Positions 41,629 to 49,276 of a stretch of DNA of 51,159 bases are shown one piece after another. Below the pieces are notes generated by a model. That model saw only the letters and a list, made by a program, of their open reading frames with translations, was not told the origin of the DNA and searched no databases. The first letter of the stretch is position 1. Each line of letters begins with the position of its first letter. A program made the translations under genes and the position numbers. The DNA is from Deltaproteobacteria bacterium (GTDB lineage Bacteria > Desulfobacterota > GWC2-55-46), in assembly GCA_016182655.1 (NCBI GenBank), contig JACPGB010000021.1, positions 1 to 51,159 on the forward strand, written 5' to 3'.

Positions 41629-44532
41629 TCAGAAGATTAGCCTGGAGATCACCTCGTTCAGCTGGTCGACCGTAAACGGCTTATTGAGCGACAGGTTCCC
41701 GGTCTCACGTAGAAACTGCTGGGTCTCCTTGTTCAGGCTGTCGCCGGATATGAATACTATCCTCTTCCGGGCGTCGGGGCGCACGCCGCTGACCGCGTTG
41801 TAGAACCCCTTGCCGTCGAGCCCCGGCATCTTGATGTCGCTTATTATGAGGTCGTAGTCGGTCTCCTTGAGCTTGCTGAGAGCGTCCTCGCCCGAGGAGG
41901 TCTTGTCGACCAGGAACCCGGAGTAAGAAAGCGAGTCGTAGAGGAGGTCCAATACTATCGCCTCGTCGTCGAGTATTAGCGCGCGGAGTCCCCGTTCACG
42001 GAGCTTCTCGGAGTCTATCCTCCTGACAGTGACTTGCCTTGCGCCCTCCTCGGCCCTCCTCGGCGGATCAATGACCGGGAGTTCCACGACGAACGTCGAG
42101 CCGTACCCGGGCGTGGACGAGGCGTAGATCGCCCCTCCGTGCTCGTTTATTATGCCGTAGGAGATGGACAGCCCGAGCCCGGTCCCCTTGCCGACGCCCT
42201 TTGTCGTGAAGAACGGGTCGAATATCCTCCCCGCTACCTCGTCCGGCATACCCTGCCCGGTGTCCTCGAACTTGACGATTATCCTGCCGCCCGAGTGCCT
42301 GGAGGTTATCCTTATCCTGCCGCTCTCGCCCTTCTCCTTTATGGCGTCGCGGGCGTTGTTTATGAGGTTCAGGAAGACCTGGTGGATCTGGTCCTCGTCG
42401 AGCATGGTATCGGGCACGGCGTCGTCGAGGTCGAAGACGAGCTCGATGTTGTCGACCTTCAACTGGTAGGACCTTAAGTCCACCGACTCCCTGACGACCT
42501 TGTTCACGCTCTCGTACTTCTTTTCCGGCCTCTTCCAGCGCGCGAAAGTGAGGAGGTTGTCTATTATCTTCTTGCACCTGTGGGAGGCGTCGTTTATCTT
42601 CTTGAGCTTCCCCTTGACCTCGTCGGAGAGCCTGTCCTCGAGGAGTAGCTCGGAGAAGCACATGATCCCGGTAAGGGGGTTGTTGAGCTCGTGCGCAACG
42701 CCCGAGACGAGCTCGCCCAGGGATGAGAGCTTGTCGGTCTGCATGAGCTTGTTCTGCATCATCCTCTGCTCGGTTATGTCCTTAATGTAGACGACCGCCC
42801 TCCTCGGGCTCTCGTTCTCGTTCACCGACGGGTAGACGTGCCAGGTGAAGACCCTGCCGTCGGCTGTGGTCAGCTCGGTCTCGACGGGCATCGAGGTCTG
42901 GATGGACCTCATTATGGGACAGTTCTTCGGCGTCTCCATGGACATCACCTGAAATATCTTCTCGCCGGCGACCGCGGACTCGGTCGTCCTGAACCGTTCG
43001 GTAAAGAACCTGTTCGCCTCCAGTATCCTGTGGTCGTAGTCGACGAGGAGTATGAAGTCCGTGATGCTGTCGTATATGAACCGGAGCTTTTCCTTGGCGC
43101 TCCTTACCTCTTCCTCCTCCTCGGTTATTATCCTGTTCGCCCTCTGGAGCTCGAGGTTTTTCCTGTCGAGGTCCTCGTTCAGTAGTTTGAGTTCCTCGTT
43201 TATGGCGTGGAGCTCCTCGGTCTGGCTCTGCGTCTCCTCGTAGGCGACTTCCAGGCTCTCGTTGGAGATCTTGAGCTCGTCGTTCAGCTCGACGAACTCC
43301 TTGTTCTTCTCCTCGATCTCCCTTAAGTACCTCTCCTTTTCCTCCTCGCGTCTCTCGACCCCGTCCATCATGGAGTTGAAGGCCCTCCCGAGCGTCTTTA
43401 TCTCGTCCAGGGTCTCGCCGCTCCCGGCAGCCACCCGCACGCGCAGGTCCCCCCTCGCGAACTCCTCTATCTTGTCCTTTAGGGATTTAAGCGGCCTCGT
43501 TATCTCGTTTGTGGATACGAGGGCCGCGAGCAGCGAGAACGTAAGCCCGACGACGGTTATGAGCGCGATTATCCACTGCGTCTCCTCCTGTATCTCCCAG
43601 AGATGCTCCTTCGAGATGCCGACGCTCAAGGAGCCTATCACAGCCCCCTCGGAGTTCCTTATGGGCTCGAACATGGTAATGAGGGTCGCGCCGGTCAACT
43701 CCCACTCCGTGAATACGGGCTTCCCGGCGCTCACGGCCCGGAGCGCGTCCGCGGGCAGGCTCGTCCCTTTAACCGACCTGCCGCTTAAATCCACTATGTT
43801 GGAGGATATCCTTTTGTCACCGGCTGAAATGGAGGTAAGCAACCCCGGTATCTTGCTTGAGACCGTGTGCGGGATGTAATCGTCGCCGTTCAGTATGTCC
43901 GCCGTTATTATCGCGCCAAGGGGCCTGCGCCTTCCGTCGAAGACCGGGGTCGCTACGACGAGAGCCATGACTGGCGCGGATTCTTCCACGCCGCCCTCCA
44001 GCCTCGCGCGCCCTTCATTATTGAGGAGCGGGGCGCCCTCGTTCCGGAGCACATCCCTTGACAGTATCTCGCTCGATATCCTCGGCTCGCCGGTCTCGAC
44101 CGCCCTCTCCACCATCCCGCCTATCCTGACCGTGTCGCCCGACGATTCGCTGTTCAGCCTCGCTATCACGCGCCCCCGCGTGTCCGTGACTATCCAGATG
44201 TCGACGTAGGGCCTCATCTCCTTCCACGCCAATACCATCCGCCGAAGATACTGCTTGTCGCCCCTCCTTACCGCGGACCTTATCTCCTCCATCGAGGCGG
44301 CCTGGAGCATGCCGTAGCGCATCTGGTCGCCTCTGACATAATATTCGGTCCAGGCGGATTTAAGCCCCATGCTTATCTTCTCGTGGGCCTCCTTATGGAG
44401 CCTCGAGTCTATTACCCTGTAGGAGATGTACGCCAGTAGCGTCATCGGTATGAGGATGACGGAGAGGAAGACGATCGTGAGCTTCACGCCCATCGTCATG
44501 TTGGAGAACTTCCTTACGAACGGCAGTTTCAT
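41629..44532 (-). CDS. Membrane hybrid sensor histidine kinase (Cache-HAMP-PAS-HK-receiver)
   Basis: A 967-residue protein. Helix 1 at ~18-38, a periplasmic Cache-like sensor (~40-320), helix 2 at ~322-345, HAMP (~345-400), a long coiled coil (~405-480), PAS (~485-600; FIYDSITDFILLVDYDHRIL), a kinase core with His in SGVAHELNNPLTG, ATPase boxes NLINNARDAI, DTGQGMP and GKGTGLGLSISYGI, and a C-terminal receiver (LILDDEAIV, phosphoacceptor in LIISDIKMPGLDG, Lys in LNKPF). The Cache domain probably senses a small periplasmic ligand. CheR is encoded five bases upstream in the same operon. The sigma-54 regulator downstream is the likely output. Confidence 0.93.
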   Translation of the reverse strand: MKLPFVRKFSNMTMGVKLTIVFLSVILIPMTLLAYISYRVIDSRLHKEAHEKISMGLKSAWTEYYVRGDQMRYGMLQAASMEEIRSAVRRGDKQYLRRMVLAWKEMRPYVDIWIVTDTRGRVIARLNSESSGDTVRIGGMVERAVETGEPRISSEILSRDVLRNEGAPLLNNEGRARLEGGVEESAPVMALVVATPVFDGRRRPLGAIITADILNGDDYIPHTVSSKIPGLLTSISAGDKRISSNIVDLSGRSVKGTSLPADALRAVSAGKPVFTEWELTGATLITMFEPIRNSEGAVIGSLSVGISKEHLWEIQEETQWIIALITVVGLTFSLLAALVSTNEITRPLKSLKDKIEEFARGDLRVRVAAGSGETLDEIKTLGRAFNSMMDGVERREEEKERYLREIEEKNKEFVELNDELKISNESLEVAYEETQSQTEELHAINEELKLLNEDLDRKNLELQRANRIITEEEEEVRSAKEKLRFIYDSITDFILLVDYDHRILEANRFFTERFRTTESAVAGEKIFQVMSMETPKNCPIMRSIQTSMPVETELTTADGRVFTWHVYPSVNENESPRRAVVYIKDITEQRMMQNKLMQTDKLSSLGELVSGVAHELNNPLTGIMCFSELLLEDRLSDEVKGKLKKINDASHRCKKIIDNLLTFARWKRPEKKYESVNKVVRESVDLRSYQLKVDNIELVFDLDDAVPDTMLDEDQIHQVFLNLINNARDAIKEKGESGRIRITSRHSGGRIIVKFEDTGQGMPDEVAGRIFDPFFTTKGVGKGTGLGLSISYGIINEHGGAIYASSTPGYGSTFVVELPVIDPPRRAEEGARQVTVRRIDSEKLRERGLRALILDDEAIVLDLLYDSLSYSGFLVDKTSSGEDALSKLKETDYDLIISDIKMPGLDGKGFYNAVSGVRPDARKRIVFISGDSLNKETQQFLRETGNLSLNKPFTVDQLNEVISRLIF

Positions 44533-44537
44533 GATGG

Positions 44538-45338
44538 TCAGGTCCTCTTTCTGAAGGTGCTGAGCCTCGTTCCCAATGGCGCGTACTTATGAGCGAAAAG
44601 GGGCGGTATGACCTCGGCCTTGCCGAGGACGAGAAGCCCCCCGGGTTTCAGCGAATAATCGAGCTTTTCGAAGACCTGGGCCTGCAGTGATTTATTGAAA
44701 TAGATGAAGAGGTTCCGGCAGAAGAGGACCTCTACCCCGGAAATAGAGGGGCTCCGCACTATGTCGAGGACGCCGAACTTCACAAGGTCCCTTATGTTGT
44801 ACTTCACCTTGTAAAGGCCGTCGGTCTTCGTAAAATATCTGTCGAGGACCTCCGGGCGCACGTTTTTAAGCGCCTCGTCCCTGTAGAGCGCCTTTCTCGC
44901 GTTGTCGAGCGCCTCGGGGTCTATGTCGGTAGCGAAGAGCTTCGTGTTCTTTATAGCCTCGAAAGAGAGGCACTCTGCAAGCGATATGGCGATCGAGTAC
45001 GCCTCCTCGCCGTAGCCGCACCCGCAACACCAGACCTTCAGGACCTTGTCGCGCCAGCTCTCCCTTATCGCTTCGCAGAGCCTCTCGAAGACCTCGGGCT
45101 CCCTGAAAAACTCGCTTACTTTTATGGTGAGATTTGCGAAGAGCCTGTCGTATTCGGAAGGGTCCCTGCCGAGGAGGCTCGCGTACTCTCCGTATGAGGC
45201 GAGTTCGAGGAGCATGAGCCTCTTGGATATCCTCCTCATGACGCTCGACCGCTTGTAGTTGCGAAAATCCCAACCTCTTTCGTTGTAAATCCTCTCAAGC
45301 AGCATATCGAGGTCACCGTTGCGGTCTTTTACGGGCAT
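44538..45338 (-). CDS. CheR-type protein-glutamate methyltransferase
   Basis: A 266-residue S-adenosylmethionine-dependent methyltransferase that would methylate glutamates of chemoreceptors. The N-terminal helical domain includes YKRSSVMRRISKRL and the FREPEVF segment. The SAM site is KVWCCGCGYGEEAYSIAI (CheR consensus WSAGCSTGEEPYSIAM, here with CGCGYGEEA). The FATDIDPEALDNARKA motif and the FCRNLFIYF signature complete it. The gene lies alone with a hybrid kinase (5-bp gap) and without cheB or cheA. The substrate may be the chemoreceptor at 26428-28440 or the kinase partner. Confidence 0.9.
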   Translation of the reverse strand: MPVKDRNGDLDMLLERIYNERGWDFRNYKRSSVMRRISKRLMLLELASYGEYASLLGRDPSEYDRLFANLTIKVSEFFREPEVFERLCEAIRESWRDKVLKVWCCGCGYGEEAYSIAISLAECLSFEAIKNTKLFATDIDPEALDNARKALYRDEALKNVRPEVLDRYFTKTDGLYKVKYNIRDLVKFGVLDIVRSPSISGVEVLFCRNLFIYFNKSLQAQVFEKLDYSLKPGGLLVLGKAEVIPPLFAHKYAPLGTRLSTFRKRT

Positions 45339-45504: not shown

Positions 45505-45516
45505 ATGCTCAAGTCC

Positions 45517-48500
45517 ATGGAGATATCAAGGCTTCTTAAGGCAGTGATACTCAACATAAAGGCGCGGGACCATGCCTCCGTACTTAACGATATGACCCGC
45601 CGCATCCTCCCGGAAGGCCGCGCCCCCGGGGCCGGGGCGATCTGCGACCTCAAGGGGCACGAATCGACCGAGGGCATACTCTCGGGCACGGGCGCGGCGA
45701 TATTCCACTGCCTCTCCGAAGAGGTCACGGATACGGCCATTGCCCTCGCCGTGTCGAGCCGCCCTCTGCCGCACCCTTCGAGGAAGACGCGCGTAAGGAT
45801 ATTCTTCCTCATAATCTCCCCCATAAAAGAGAGCGGCTCTCATTTACAGCTCTTATCCAAGCTCGAGGGGCTCGTCCTCGACCCGGCCTTCCGCCATGCA
45901 GTCCTCCTTGCCTCGTCGGATGAAGAGGCTATAAGGGCCGTAAGAAGGGCCGAGGCCTCCGCGCGCTCCATGTACATGCCACTTCCAAGGGAGGACCTCT
46001 TTTCCGAGCTCGGCTCTTCCCCCGCGGGCTTGACGGAAACCGCCGCCGAGGCGCGCCTGAAGCTTACCGGCCCGAACTCGATCAAGCGAATAGAGAAGAG
46101 GATGCTCCTAAGGGACTTCCTCCACAACATGTTCCTGAACCTCTTCGCAGTGCTCCTCTGGGCGGGCGGCTTCATGTCGTTCGTCGCCGGCATGCCCGAG
46201 CTCGGCTGGGCCATATTCCTCGTCATCGTCATAAACGCCGCCTTCAGCTTCTGGCAGGAGTACAAGGCCGAGAGGGCGGTCGAGGCCCTTAAAAACCTCC
46301 TCCCCCAAAAGGTCCGCGTCGTCCGGGACGGCCGGGAGCGGGAGACAGACGCGGCCTCGCTCGTCCCCGGAGACCTCATAAGATTGTCCGAAGGGGACAG
46401 CGTCCCCGCAGACGGAAGACTCGTCGCCTCCGAAGCGATGCGGGTAGACAACAGCCCGCTTACCGGGGAGTCCCGCCCCATATACAAGGTCTCGGAGCCG
46501 CTCGCAAACGGCAAGGGCTTCATCTGGACGGAAGTGCCGAACATGGTATTCGCGGGCACGACCGTCCTTTCCGGAGACGGCGCGATGATAGTCACTGCCA
46601 CGGGCATGGATACCGAGATAGGCCGCGTCGCCTACCTTACGCAGGCGATAAAGGCCGAGATGAGCCCGCTCCAAAAAGAGATAGTGAGCATCACCAAGGT
46701 CGTGACCGGCATAGCCCTGTTTCTCGGGGTCTCCTTCTTCCTCCTCGGCATCGGTCTTGCCGGGCTCACATACGCCGAGAGCTTCATATTCGCCATAGGC
46801 ATAATCGTCGCGAATGTGCCGGAGGGGCTCCTTCCCACGGTCTCCCTCTCGCTTGCGATGGGCGTTCAGAGGATGGCCGGGAAAAAGGCGATAGTAAAGA
46901 AGCTCTCCGCGGTTGAGACGCTCGGCAGCGCGACCGTCATCTGCACGGACAAGACCGGGACGCTCACGCAGAACCGGATGTGCGCGACAAAGCTCTTCGT
47001 GAACGGCAAGACGATAGAGGTCACGGGCGCCGGTTACGCGCCCGAGGGCGGCTTCGTCATCGGAAAAGAGCGGATGACGCGGGACGGGCTTAAGAAGGAA
47101 GGCGCGCTCGACCTCCTCGCCATCATGGCCCTTTGCAACAACGCGAAGCTCCACCCCCCGGCAAAGGAAGGAGACTGGACCGTCACCGGCGACCCGACCG
47201 AAGGCGCGCTTTTGACTGCCGCCGCAAAGGCCGGGCTCGACCTCGCATCCCTTGAGAAAAATTACAAGCGCTCCGGCCACCTCCCGTTCGAGAGGATCCG
47301 GAAGAGGATGACGACCATACACGAGGCCGGAGGGGGCCTCAGGGCGTTCGTAAAAGGCTCTCCCAAAGAGGTCCTCGCTCTCTGCACGCGCATGAGCAAG
47401 GGCGGCAAGGCCGTCCAGTTAAGCGACGAAGAACGCGCTCTGATACTCCGGGAGAACGACTCTATGGCGTCAAAAGGCCTCCGGGTGCTCGCCGCGGCGT
47501 ACAGGGAGGTCGGGAAAAAAGACGCATACCGGCCAAACGAGGTCGAGCAGGACCTCGTCTTCGCGGGGCTCGTCGCCATGCTCGACCCGCCGAGGCCGGG
47601 CGTCAGGGAAGCCGTCGCCGAATGCCGCACCGCCGGCATAAAAGTAGTCATGGTCACCGGAGACTACGGGCTTACCGCCAAATCGATCGCCGAGGAGGTC
47701 GGCATCGCAAAAGACGCCCGCCTCATAACAGGCGACGAGCTCGGGGCGATGTCCGCCGGGGAACTGCGCGAGGCGCTTAAGAAAGGCGAGGCGATATTCG
47801 CGCGCGTCGCCCCGGCCGACAAGCTGAGAGTCGTCGAAGCCCTCCAGGCGAACGGCGAGATAGTCGCGGTCACGGGCGACGGGGTCAACGACGCCCCGGC
47901 GCTTAAAAAAGCCGACATAGGTGTCGCGATGGGGCTCCGGGGGTCTGACGCCGCAAAGGAGTCGGCCGAGATCGTCCTTGCGGACGACAACTTCGCCTCC
48001 ATCGTCGACGCCATCCGCGAGGGCAGGGCCGTCTACGCGAACATACGGAAGTTCGTGACCTACATATTCGCCTCGAACATCCCGGAGCTCGTCCCGTTCA
48101 TAGCATTCGTAATATTCAAGATACCGCTCCCCCTTACCGTCATGCAGATACTCGCCGTCGACCTCGGGACCGACGTCCTACCGGCGCTCGGGCTCGGGGT
48201 AGAGCCGCCCGAGGCAGGCATCATGAAGGAGCCGCCGAGACCCAGGGGGAAAAGGTTGCTGGACTTCGGTACCCTCGCCCGCGCCTATCTCTTTCTGGGG
48301 CCTATTGAGGCCGTGCTTGCCATGTCCGCCTTCTTCTTCGCCTATTGGATAAGGGGCTGGACGCCGGGAGACGGCATGGCGTCGGCCGGGGCGATATACG
48401 CCTCCGCCACTACCATGACATTCGCCGGGATAGTCGCCTCGCAGATAGGCAATGTCTTCGCCTGCAGGACCGGCACTCTCTCGGTCTTCTCCGCCGGGTT

Positions 48501-48726
48501 CTTCCGTAACCGCTTCGTCCTCTTTGCCATAGCGGCGGAGATTGTCCTCGCGCTGGTCCTCGTCTACGCGCCGTACCTGAACCGCGTCTTCGGTTTTGCG
48601 CCTCTCGGCCTCTACGACTGGGCCTTTCTCTCGGCCTTCCCGTTCATAATGCTCATCGCCGAGGAGCTCAGAAAGTCCGTAATGAGGAAGGCCCGCCCGC
48701 TTGCGCCATCCCATCAAAAGGCTTGA
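45517..48726 (+). CDS. P2C-type cation ATPase with N-terminal PTS EIIA-Ntr-like domain
   Basis: A 1069-residue fusion. Residues ~1-150 look like a PTS EIIA (PtsN/fructose type) domain: LNIKARDHASVLNDM, GTGAAIFHC with the phosphorylatable His at H64 (Phe for the usual Pro before it), then HLQLLSKLEGLVLDPAFR. The rest is a P-type ATPase: TGES at 316-319, catalytic DKTGTLTQ at D478, TGDGVNDAP at 786-794, ten predicted transmembrane helices. NVPEGLLPTVS, KKLSAVETLGS and NIPELVPF...ILAVDLGTD are closest to Na+/K+-ATPase-like P2C pumps rather than Ca2+ pumps. ATG 45517 is chosen because the EIIA domain starts there; the longer frame to 45319 runs into antisense cheR. EIIA-Ntr controls K+ transport in proteobacteria, so phosphorylation-dependent control of this pump is an attractive inference. 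Confidence 0.88.
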   Translation: MEISRLLKAVILNIKARDHASVLNDMTRRILPEGRAPGAGAICDLKGHESTEGILSGTGAAIFHCLSEEVTDTAIALAVSSRPLPHPSRKTRVRIFFLIISPIKESGSHLQLLSKLEGLVLDPAFRHAVLLASSDEEAIRAVRRAEASARSMYMPLPREDLFSELGSSPAGLTETAAEARLKLTGPNSIKRIEKRMLLRDFLHNMFLNLFAVLLWAGGFMSFVAGMPELGWAIFLVIVINAAFSFWQEYKAERAVEALKNLLPQKVRVVRDGRERETDAASLVPGDLIRLSEGDSVPADGRLVASEAMRVDNSPLTGESRPIYKVSEPLANGKGFIWTEVPNMVFAGTTVLSGDGAMIVTATGMDTEIGRVAYLTQAIKAEMSPLQKEIVSITKVVTGIALFLGVSFFLLGIGLAGLTYAESFIFAIGIIVANVPEGLLPTVSLSLAMGVQRMAGKKAIVKKLSAVETLGSATVICTDKTGTLTQNRMCATKLFVNGKTIEVTGAGYAPEGGFVIGKERMTRDGLKKEGALDLLAIMALCNNAKLHPPAKEGDWTVTGDPTEGALLTAAAKAGLDLASLEKNYKRSGHLPFERIRKRMTTIHEAGGGLRAFVKGSPKEVLALCTRMSKGGKAVQLSDEERALILRENDSMASKGLRVLAAAYREVGKKDAYRPNEVEQDLVFAGLVAMLDPPRPGVREAVAECRTAGIKVVMVTGDYGLTAKSIAEEVGIAKDARLITGDELGAMSAGELREALKKGEAIFARVAPADKLRVVEALQANGEIVAVTGDGVNDAPALKKADIGVAMGLRGSDAAKESAEIVLADDNFASIVDAIREGRAVYANIRKFVTYIFASNIPELVPFIAFVIFKIPLPLTVMQILAVDLGTDVLPALGLGVEPPEAGIMKEPPRPRGKRLLDFGTLARAYLFLGPIEAVLAMSAFFFAYWIRGWTPGDGMASAGAIYASATTMTFAGIVASQIGNVFACRTGTLSVFSAGFFRNRFVLFAIAAEIVLALVLVYAPYLNRVFGFAPLGLYDWAFLSAFPFIMLIAEELRKSVMRKARPLAPSHQKA

Positions 48727-48784: not shown

Positions 48785-49276
48785 ATGAGCGACGTTAAAA
48801 ACAAGGGTTCTGTCACGATAGTCCTCTTTAGCGGCGAGATGGACAAGGCGATAGCGGCGTTCGTCATCGCGACAGCCGCGGCCTCGATGTCCATGCAGGT
48901 AAACATCTTCTTCACCTTCTGGGGCTTGAAGGCCATCAGGAAGGAAGGCGGCCTCATAAAGGGGCAGAACTGGATGCAGAAGATGCTGAACATCATGAAC
49001 TACGGCCACGCGAAGAAGCTCGCCATATCCAAGCTCAACATGATGGGCATGGGCCCTATGATGCTGAAGTCCATGATGTCGCAAAAGAGGGTCCCTTCGC
49101 TCCACGAGTTCATAAAGACCGCGCACGCGCTCGGAGTAAAGTTCTACCCGTGCGAGATGTCCATGACCGTCATGGGCCTTAAGAAAGAGGACTTCATCGA
49201 AGAGTGCGGGGAGATCATCGGGGCCGTTTCGTACCTCGCAAAAGCAAAGGAATCGAATATAAACCTTTTCATATAA
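48785..49276 (+). CDS. DsrE2-like (DsrE/DsrF/DrsH) sulfur-carrier protein
   Basis: A 163-residue protein of the DsrE family: TIVLFSGEMDKAIAAFVIATAAASM at the N-terminus, a central FFTFWGL, and PCEMSMTVMGL near 125, where the Cys is the family's persulfide-carrying residue. A Met/Lys-rich middle (KLNMMGMGPMMLKSMM) is typical of DsrE2 proteins. Members carry sulfane sulfur to or from TusA, often at the membrane. ATG 48785 is chosen (AGGGG nine bases upstream). TusA follows ten bases later, so the pair forms a sulfur-transfer operon; no rhodanese or sox/hdr genes are here. Confidence 0.88.
   Translation: MSDVKNKGSVTIVLFSGEMDKAIAAFVIATAAASMSMQVNIFFTFWGLKAIRKEGGLIKGQNWMQKMLNIMNYGHAKKLAISKLNMMGMGPMMLKSMMSQKRVPSLHEFIKTAHALGVKFYPCEMSMTVMGLKKEDFIEECGEIIGAVSYLAKAKESNINLFI

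Follow-up and report, generated by a model that had tools for sequence, protein, structure and literature searches.

A type-2 EIIA domain fused to a Na,K-ATPase-like pump in Deltaproteobacteria and its possible gating by the PEP-dependent phosphorelay

The window, the whole stretch of 51,159 nucleotides of a deltaproteobacterial contig that was analyzed, encodes a protein in which a PTS domain precedes a cation pump. This locus raises two questions, namely, whether the two parts form a genuine single protein and, if so, whether the PTS domain controls the pump. A sequence-only reading had proposed an EIIA-Ntr-like domain joined to a Na+/K+-type P-type ATPase, an arrangement that would place ion pumping under the control of PTS or nitrogen status. 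The gene is one unbroken open reading frame without an internal stop; an alternative in-frame ATG is possible at 45505, four codons 5' of the start at 45517.

45517..48726, forward strand: EIIA-P2C ATPase fusion gene, 1069 amino acids plus the stop codon TGA at 48724-48726

The N-terminal part contains the following features.

45541..45942, forward strand: PTS_EIIA_2 domain, residues 9-142 (Pfam E 9e-15; AlphaFold model)
45706..45708, forward strand: H64 (codon CAC), aligned with the phospho-accepting His of PtsN
45841..45843, forward strand: H109, the second EIIA active-site His

The assignment of the N-terminal ~150 residues to EIIA holds: a profile search matches Pfam PTS_EIIA_2 (PF00359) to residues 9-142, with E 3.7e-13 when the whole protein is searched and 9.3e-15 when only residues 1-164 are, and the score of 55.3 bits compares with a gathering score of 27. 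The AlphaFold model of residues 1-157 (pLDDT 82, pTM 0.81) has its nearest PDB match in EIIA-Ntr 1a6j (Z 17.9, rmsd 2.4 Å over 142 residues) and also matches EIIA-Mtl 1a3a (Z 13.4); the full-length model is of only moderate confidence (pLDDT 73, pTM 0.57). The "EIIA-Ntr-like" label stands for the fold but not for the family. The domain, which is moreover fused, scores 18 bits against the cut-off of 138.7 of the NCBIfam PtsN equivalog TIGR01419, a model of the stand-alone protein, and 40.6 bits against the cut-off of 103.5 of the NCBIfam fructose-EIIA model. It is a distant type-2 EIIA with an Ntr-like fold, and "EIIA-Ntr" is wrong as a family name. The domain shares with PtsN (E. coli 1a6j, Neisseria 2a0j) the fold and the aligned catalytic His pair, but it is covalently joined to a transporter, has IFHC in place of IPHG, falls below the PtsN cut-off and co-exists with a separate PtsN, to which it is about 24% identical in the same genome.

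H64 aligns with the active-site His (IPHG) of PtsN proteins from the same genomes, and H109, within SGSHLQLLSK, aligns with the second EIIA His, which places H64 at the predicted phosphorylation position, as originally proposed. A full-length alignment of 22 members has just four invariant positions in residues 1-150, namely, H64, P102, H109 and L113 (both histidines in 22/22); the chance that both fall among these four is ~5e-4, assuming equivalent positions. Both histidines are constant across 43 distinct fused domains, while the motif around H64 drifts from IPH to IFH, ILH and LPH; nearly all fused domains have Phe or Leu immediately before H64, and a few have Pro. One domain (L157), read separately, has LPHF and GHLKLL and keeps both histidines. 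Both the Pro that precedes H64 and the canonical Arg (RE to HE) are replaced in the class to which the window belongs, so that the phosphotransfer chemistry or the partner could differ. Two of the domains are altered. In L021 (G008), an insertion lies between the two histidines, and in the 43-domain comparison this domain was matched as two pieces, each with its His; in L025 (G055), some 40 residues that follow the second His are apparently missing, and its frame is reported to contain a stop codon.

Two artefacts could mimic a fusion, namely, a real start downstream of the EIIA domain and a frameshift or assembly join of two separate genes. The former is unlikely because the protein is conserved in orthologues from residue 1 on, the codon-position identities in the EIIA part (0.93/0.96/0.70) are similar to those in the pump part, and the 66 codons 5' of the start have a non-coding appearance, with an omega of 0.79 when the window is compared with its closest sister. 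The latter is unlikely as well, given that the fusion lies in a single open frame in most full-length relatives and that this uninterrupted frame is found in many independent assemblies, including the single-contig G265 and G214. Neither of these doubts, both raised by the sequence-only reading, survives the comparison.

The fusion is not an artefact: in a survey of 395 genomes of one phylum, it recurs in at least seven families, both halves have the same dN/dS of 0.11, and a single old fusion with one loss fits the tree of the pump. The same chain is present in relatives from the family, order and class, with EIIA identities of 40 to 90%, and families f57, f19, f62 and f79 contain fused forms as well; in three of these, Pfam confirms the EIIA domain (G117, E 2e-30; G265, 3e-10; G214, 7e-9). 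In named genomes, the domain is encoded at 36 loci, labeled only as Deltaproteobacteria, Nitrospinota or unclassified bacterium. Comparison of the window with its nearest sister gives a dN/dS of 0.109 for EIIA and 0.110 for the pump; the two halves are under the same constraint. In the pump-half tree, all fused rows belong to one group of 21 (SH-aLRT 95), the only EIIA-less members of which are four rows from f96/f99, and the data do not reject a topology in which the fused rows stay together (p-AU 0.33). This is a quick tree with long branches, a fit and no proof, and it would be compatible with one gain and one loss of EIIA; the fusion appears to be old and conserved.

The four f96/f99 pumps (L153, L154, L155 and L156) are nested in the fused group and have no EIIA match, an apparent domain loss. 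Three of their frames (G414, G343 and G332) are 1014-1043 aa long; in G414 and G343, inspection of the extra residues by eye found no recognizable EIIA, and these residues resemble upstream read-through. These families keep HPr, yet their closely related pump lacks EIIA, so that the domain is dispensable there. Conversely, the MAGs JACPZB and JACRNI each encode two fused EIIA copies on different contigs (L101 and L107; L100 and L109).

The features of the pump half are listed below.

45985..46179, forward strand: Cation_ATPase_N, residues 157-221, with a short linker to EIIA (Pfam)
46297..46881, forward strand: E1-E2_ATPase (actuator, TGES 316-319) and M3-M4 with VANVPEGLL (E436) (Pfam, alignment with structural relatives, 22-member alignment)
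46948..46962, forward strand: P-type catalytic motif DKTGT (D478), invariant in the 22-member alignment
48073..48087, forward strand: M5 ion-site residues S853, N854 and E857 (SNIPE), aligned with Na,K-ATPase SNIPE
48160..48174, forward strand: M6 ion-site residues D882 and D886 (DLGTD), invariant in 22/22 and aligned with Na,K-ATPase DLGTD
48124..48678, forward strand: Cation_ATPase_C, residues 870-1054 (Pfam)

Residues ~157-1058 comprise a complete P2-type ATPase: after EIIA, Pfam finds Cation_ATPase_N, E1-E2_ATPase, Cation_ATPase, Hydrolase and Cation_ATPase_C, all above the cut-off, the P-type ATPase superfamily model TIGR01494 scores 315 bits against a cut-off of 62.3, and the DKTGT, TGES and TGDGVNDAP motifs are invariant or nearly so in the 22-member alignment. 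With ion-site residues as in Na,K-ATPase in M4 (E436), M5 (S853/N854/E857) and M6 (D882/D886), the remaining ~900 residues form the complete P2C-like pump that had been claimed. The P2C subfamily model TIGR01106, probably one centered on alpha subunits of the animal type, gives 614.9 bits against a cut-off of 946. Judged by its sequence, the pump is Na,K-ATPase-like (P2C): it is ~33% identical to the Na,K-ATPase alpha subunit over the pump and has the same catalytic motifs and the same residues at ion sites I and II. Unlike Na,K-ATPase, the protein has an N-terminal EIIA domain and no beta subunit among the identified neighboring genes, and Na+ site III is partly changed (Thr to A852, Asp to N979), so that the stoichiometry or the ion could differ. 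The genome also encodes a second, unfused P2-type ATPase (L034, G000:C33), ~41% identical to the pump half.

The fusion gene has conspicuous neighbors. Divergently upstream, at 41629-45338 on the reverse strand, lie a gene for a hybrid sensor histidine kinase with sCache, HAMP, PAS, HisKA and receiver domains and one for a CheR-type methyltransferase, an order that recurs in about 15 related loci. Directly downstream on the same strand, at 48785-49276, is a gene for a DsrE/DsrF-like protein (Pfam DrsE_2, E 2e-51), which recurs downstream of the fusion in about 11 related loci; a nucleoside phosphorylase is next. We considered these neighbors as a functional clue and set them aside because the CheR-like, sensor-kinase and DsrE-like genes recur in close relatives only; comparison across lineages found no universal partner gene next to the fusion.

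Control by phosphorylation would require a donor, and a full phosphorelay is encoded in the window's genome in one cluster, rpoN-hpf-ptsN-hprK-rapZ-EIIA-Man-EIIB-further EII genes-HPr-EI, in which EI, HPr, HprK, EIIA-Man and the separate PtsN are confirmed by Pfam and the others were read from sequence. The regions usual for His15 and Ser46 are present in HPr as GLHARAA and KSIMGI, respectively. In EI, which is 589 aa long, Pfam detects no N-terminal GAF domain, so that it is PtsI-like rather than PtsP. Mannose-type PTS genes lie within this rpoN-ptsN-hprK-rapZ-HPr-EI cluster at L033:4994-9794. Among 59 relatives, 54 have HPr and 55 have EI; all four carriers examined in other families encode both, and HPr is present in the carrier G214 as well. 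Two near-complete carriers seemingly without a PTS (G010 and G048) are uninformative as counter-evidence because the surrounding contig is missing: G010 also lacks rapZ and the stand-alone ptsN, and the G048 contig stops just past rapZ. The suggestion of PTS or nitrogen status as the input fares unevenly in this light: the PTS relay is encoded, but the case for nitrogen is weakly based. The lack of GAF in EI, the HPr kinase, the mannose-type PTS cluster and the separate PtsN together make carbon/PEP status appear the likelier input.

We propose that the N-terminal EIIA domain may serve the pump as an internal sensor of the PEP-dependent phosphorelay. Phosphate would pass from PEP via EI to HPr, and HPr~P would phosphorylate H64. 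From its position immediately N-terminal to the actuator and M1, EIIA could gate the pump by its state: when unphosphorylated, it would dock on the neighboring A, P and N domains on the cytoplasmic side and restrain the E1-E2 cycle, and phosphorylation of H64 would lift the restraint. Pumping, which costs ATP, would then run when PEP is plentiful, most likely exporting Na+. There are precedents for both steps, namely, LacS, in which a fused EIIA-Glc-like domain is phosphorylated by HPr (PMC10710835), and the K+/H+ antiporter YcgO, which unphosphorylated PtsN inhibits via direct contact (PMC11808508); more generally, PtsN is an established regulator of the ion transporters TrkA, KdpD and YcgO (PMC13104625, PMC11808508). 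Together with these precedents, the invariant His pair, the equal constraint on both halves, the EIIA-Ntr fold and the presence of the donors in the genome lead us to favor, with some reserve, control of the pump by H64 phosphorylation. Given such control, the direction in which unphosphorylated EIIA inhibits and phosphorylation releases is only slightly preferred.

The main competing explanation, which we consider unlikely, is that the EIIA fold is a structural, dimerizing or protein-docking regulatory domain without phosphotransfer, like the cytoplasmic domain of SLC4 transporters (band 3, NDCBE). The EIIA model does match SLC4 cytoplasmic domains (BTR1 at Z 16.6, band 3 at about 12), the structural homology between these and IIA-Ntr is published (PMC5608694), and the motif around H64 has drifted; nevertheless, both histidines are strictly invariant over a large divergence while their neighbors vary, and the phosphorelay donors co-occur with the fusion. 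Invariant histidines could also, together with their neighbors, bind a divalent metal or another ligand and make the domain an ion sensor of the pump, as the frequent C65 (21/44 rows) and the E49 kept in most fused domains might suggest. This is highly improbable: position 65 is not conserved, with T, S, N, I, A or F in the other rows, and the two conserved histidines are precisely those that align with PtsN as the catalytic pair of EIIA. Scarcely credible is a role in which EIIA passes phosphate on, or competes with PtsN and EIIA-Man for HPr~P, the pump being a mere membrane anchor. EIIA domains normally donate to EIIB, and EIIA-Man and PtsN of this genome are fed by the single HPr detected, but no partner gene is conserved beside the fusion across lineages, and a costly complete pump is improbable as an anchor.

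A further alternative, which overlaps with the preferred explanation, concerns the ion: under the same EIIA control, the pump might be a Ca2+/Mn2+ (P2A/PMR1-like) exporter. The best NCBIfam total is indeed that of the PMR1-type P2A model TIGR01522, 627 bits versus 615 for P2C, a near tie in which neither reaches its family cut-off and which leaves the ion to be inferred from other evidence. The fold search ranks Na,K-ATPase first, as does the search for sequence relatives with solved structures (Na,K-ATPase alpha, 539 bits; LMCA1, 511; SPCA1, 489), and M4 VANVPEGLL, M5 SNIPE and M6 DLGTD are the P2C forms, whereas in SERCA the first of the M6 positions is Asn. A Ca2+/Mn2+ exporter therefore seems doubtful, and Na+ is, with reasonable probability, the exported ion.

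Fusions of EIIA-like domains with transporters are not without parallel. The fusion, a primary ion pump with an N-terminal type-2 EIIA, differs from LacS, a secondary sugar transporter, the EIIA-Glc-like domain of which belongs to a different fold family. SLC4 proteins (band 3, NDCBE, BTR1) have an EIIA-Ntr-like fold as the cytoplasmic N-terminal domain of an ion transporter, so that an EIIA fold preceding an ion transporter parallels these exchangers; unlike the fusion, they are eukaryotic secondary transporters, not PTS-linked and with a different membrane domain. The likeness to LacS of streptococci and lactobacilli lies in the combination of a transporter with a fused EIIA-type domain, in that case controlled by HPr phosphorylation (PMC10710835). 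A search of the open-licence literature found no described EIIA-P-type ATPase protein, in line with the initial statement that no characterized example is known, and the architecture may stand unremarked in public databases.

We know of no P-type ATPase that is controlled by histidine phosphorylation of its own domain; if the proposed control is correct, the fusion would be the first such pump known to us. The mechanism by which PtsN controls ion transport has long been disputed because PtsN acts via transient contacts with several partners. The fusion fixes the partner and the stoichiometry, which makes phosphorylation-dependent gating directly testable in one purified protein. The full proposal, one-chain gating of a primary ion pump by a PTS phosphohistidine, such that the PEP/pyruvate ratio, via HPr, would set the sodium or ionic balance of these anaerobic bacteria, strikes us as evenly poised. 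In the bacteria that carry the fusion, ion pumping is probably switched by the PEP state of the cell.
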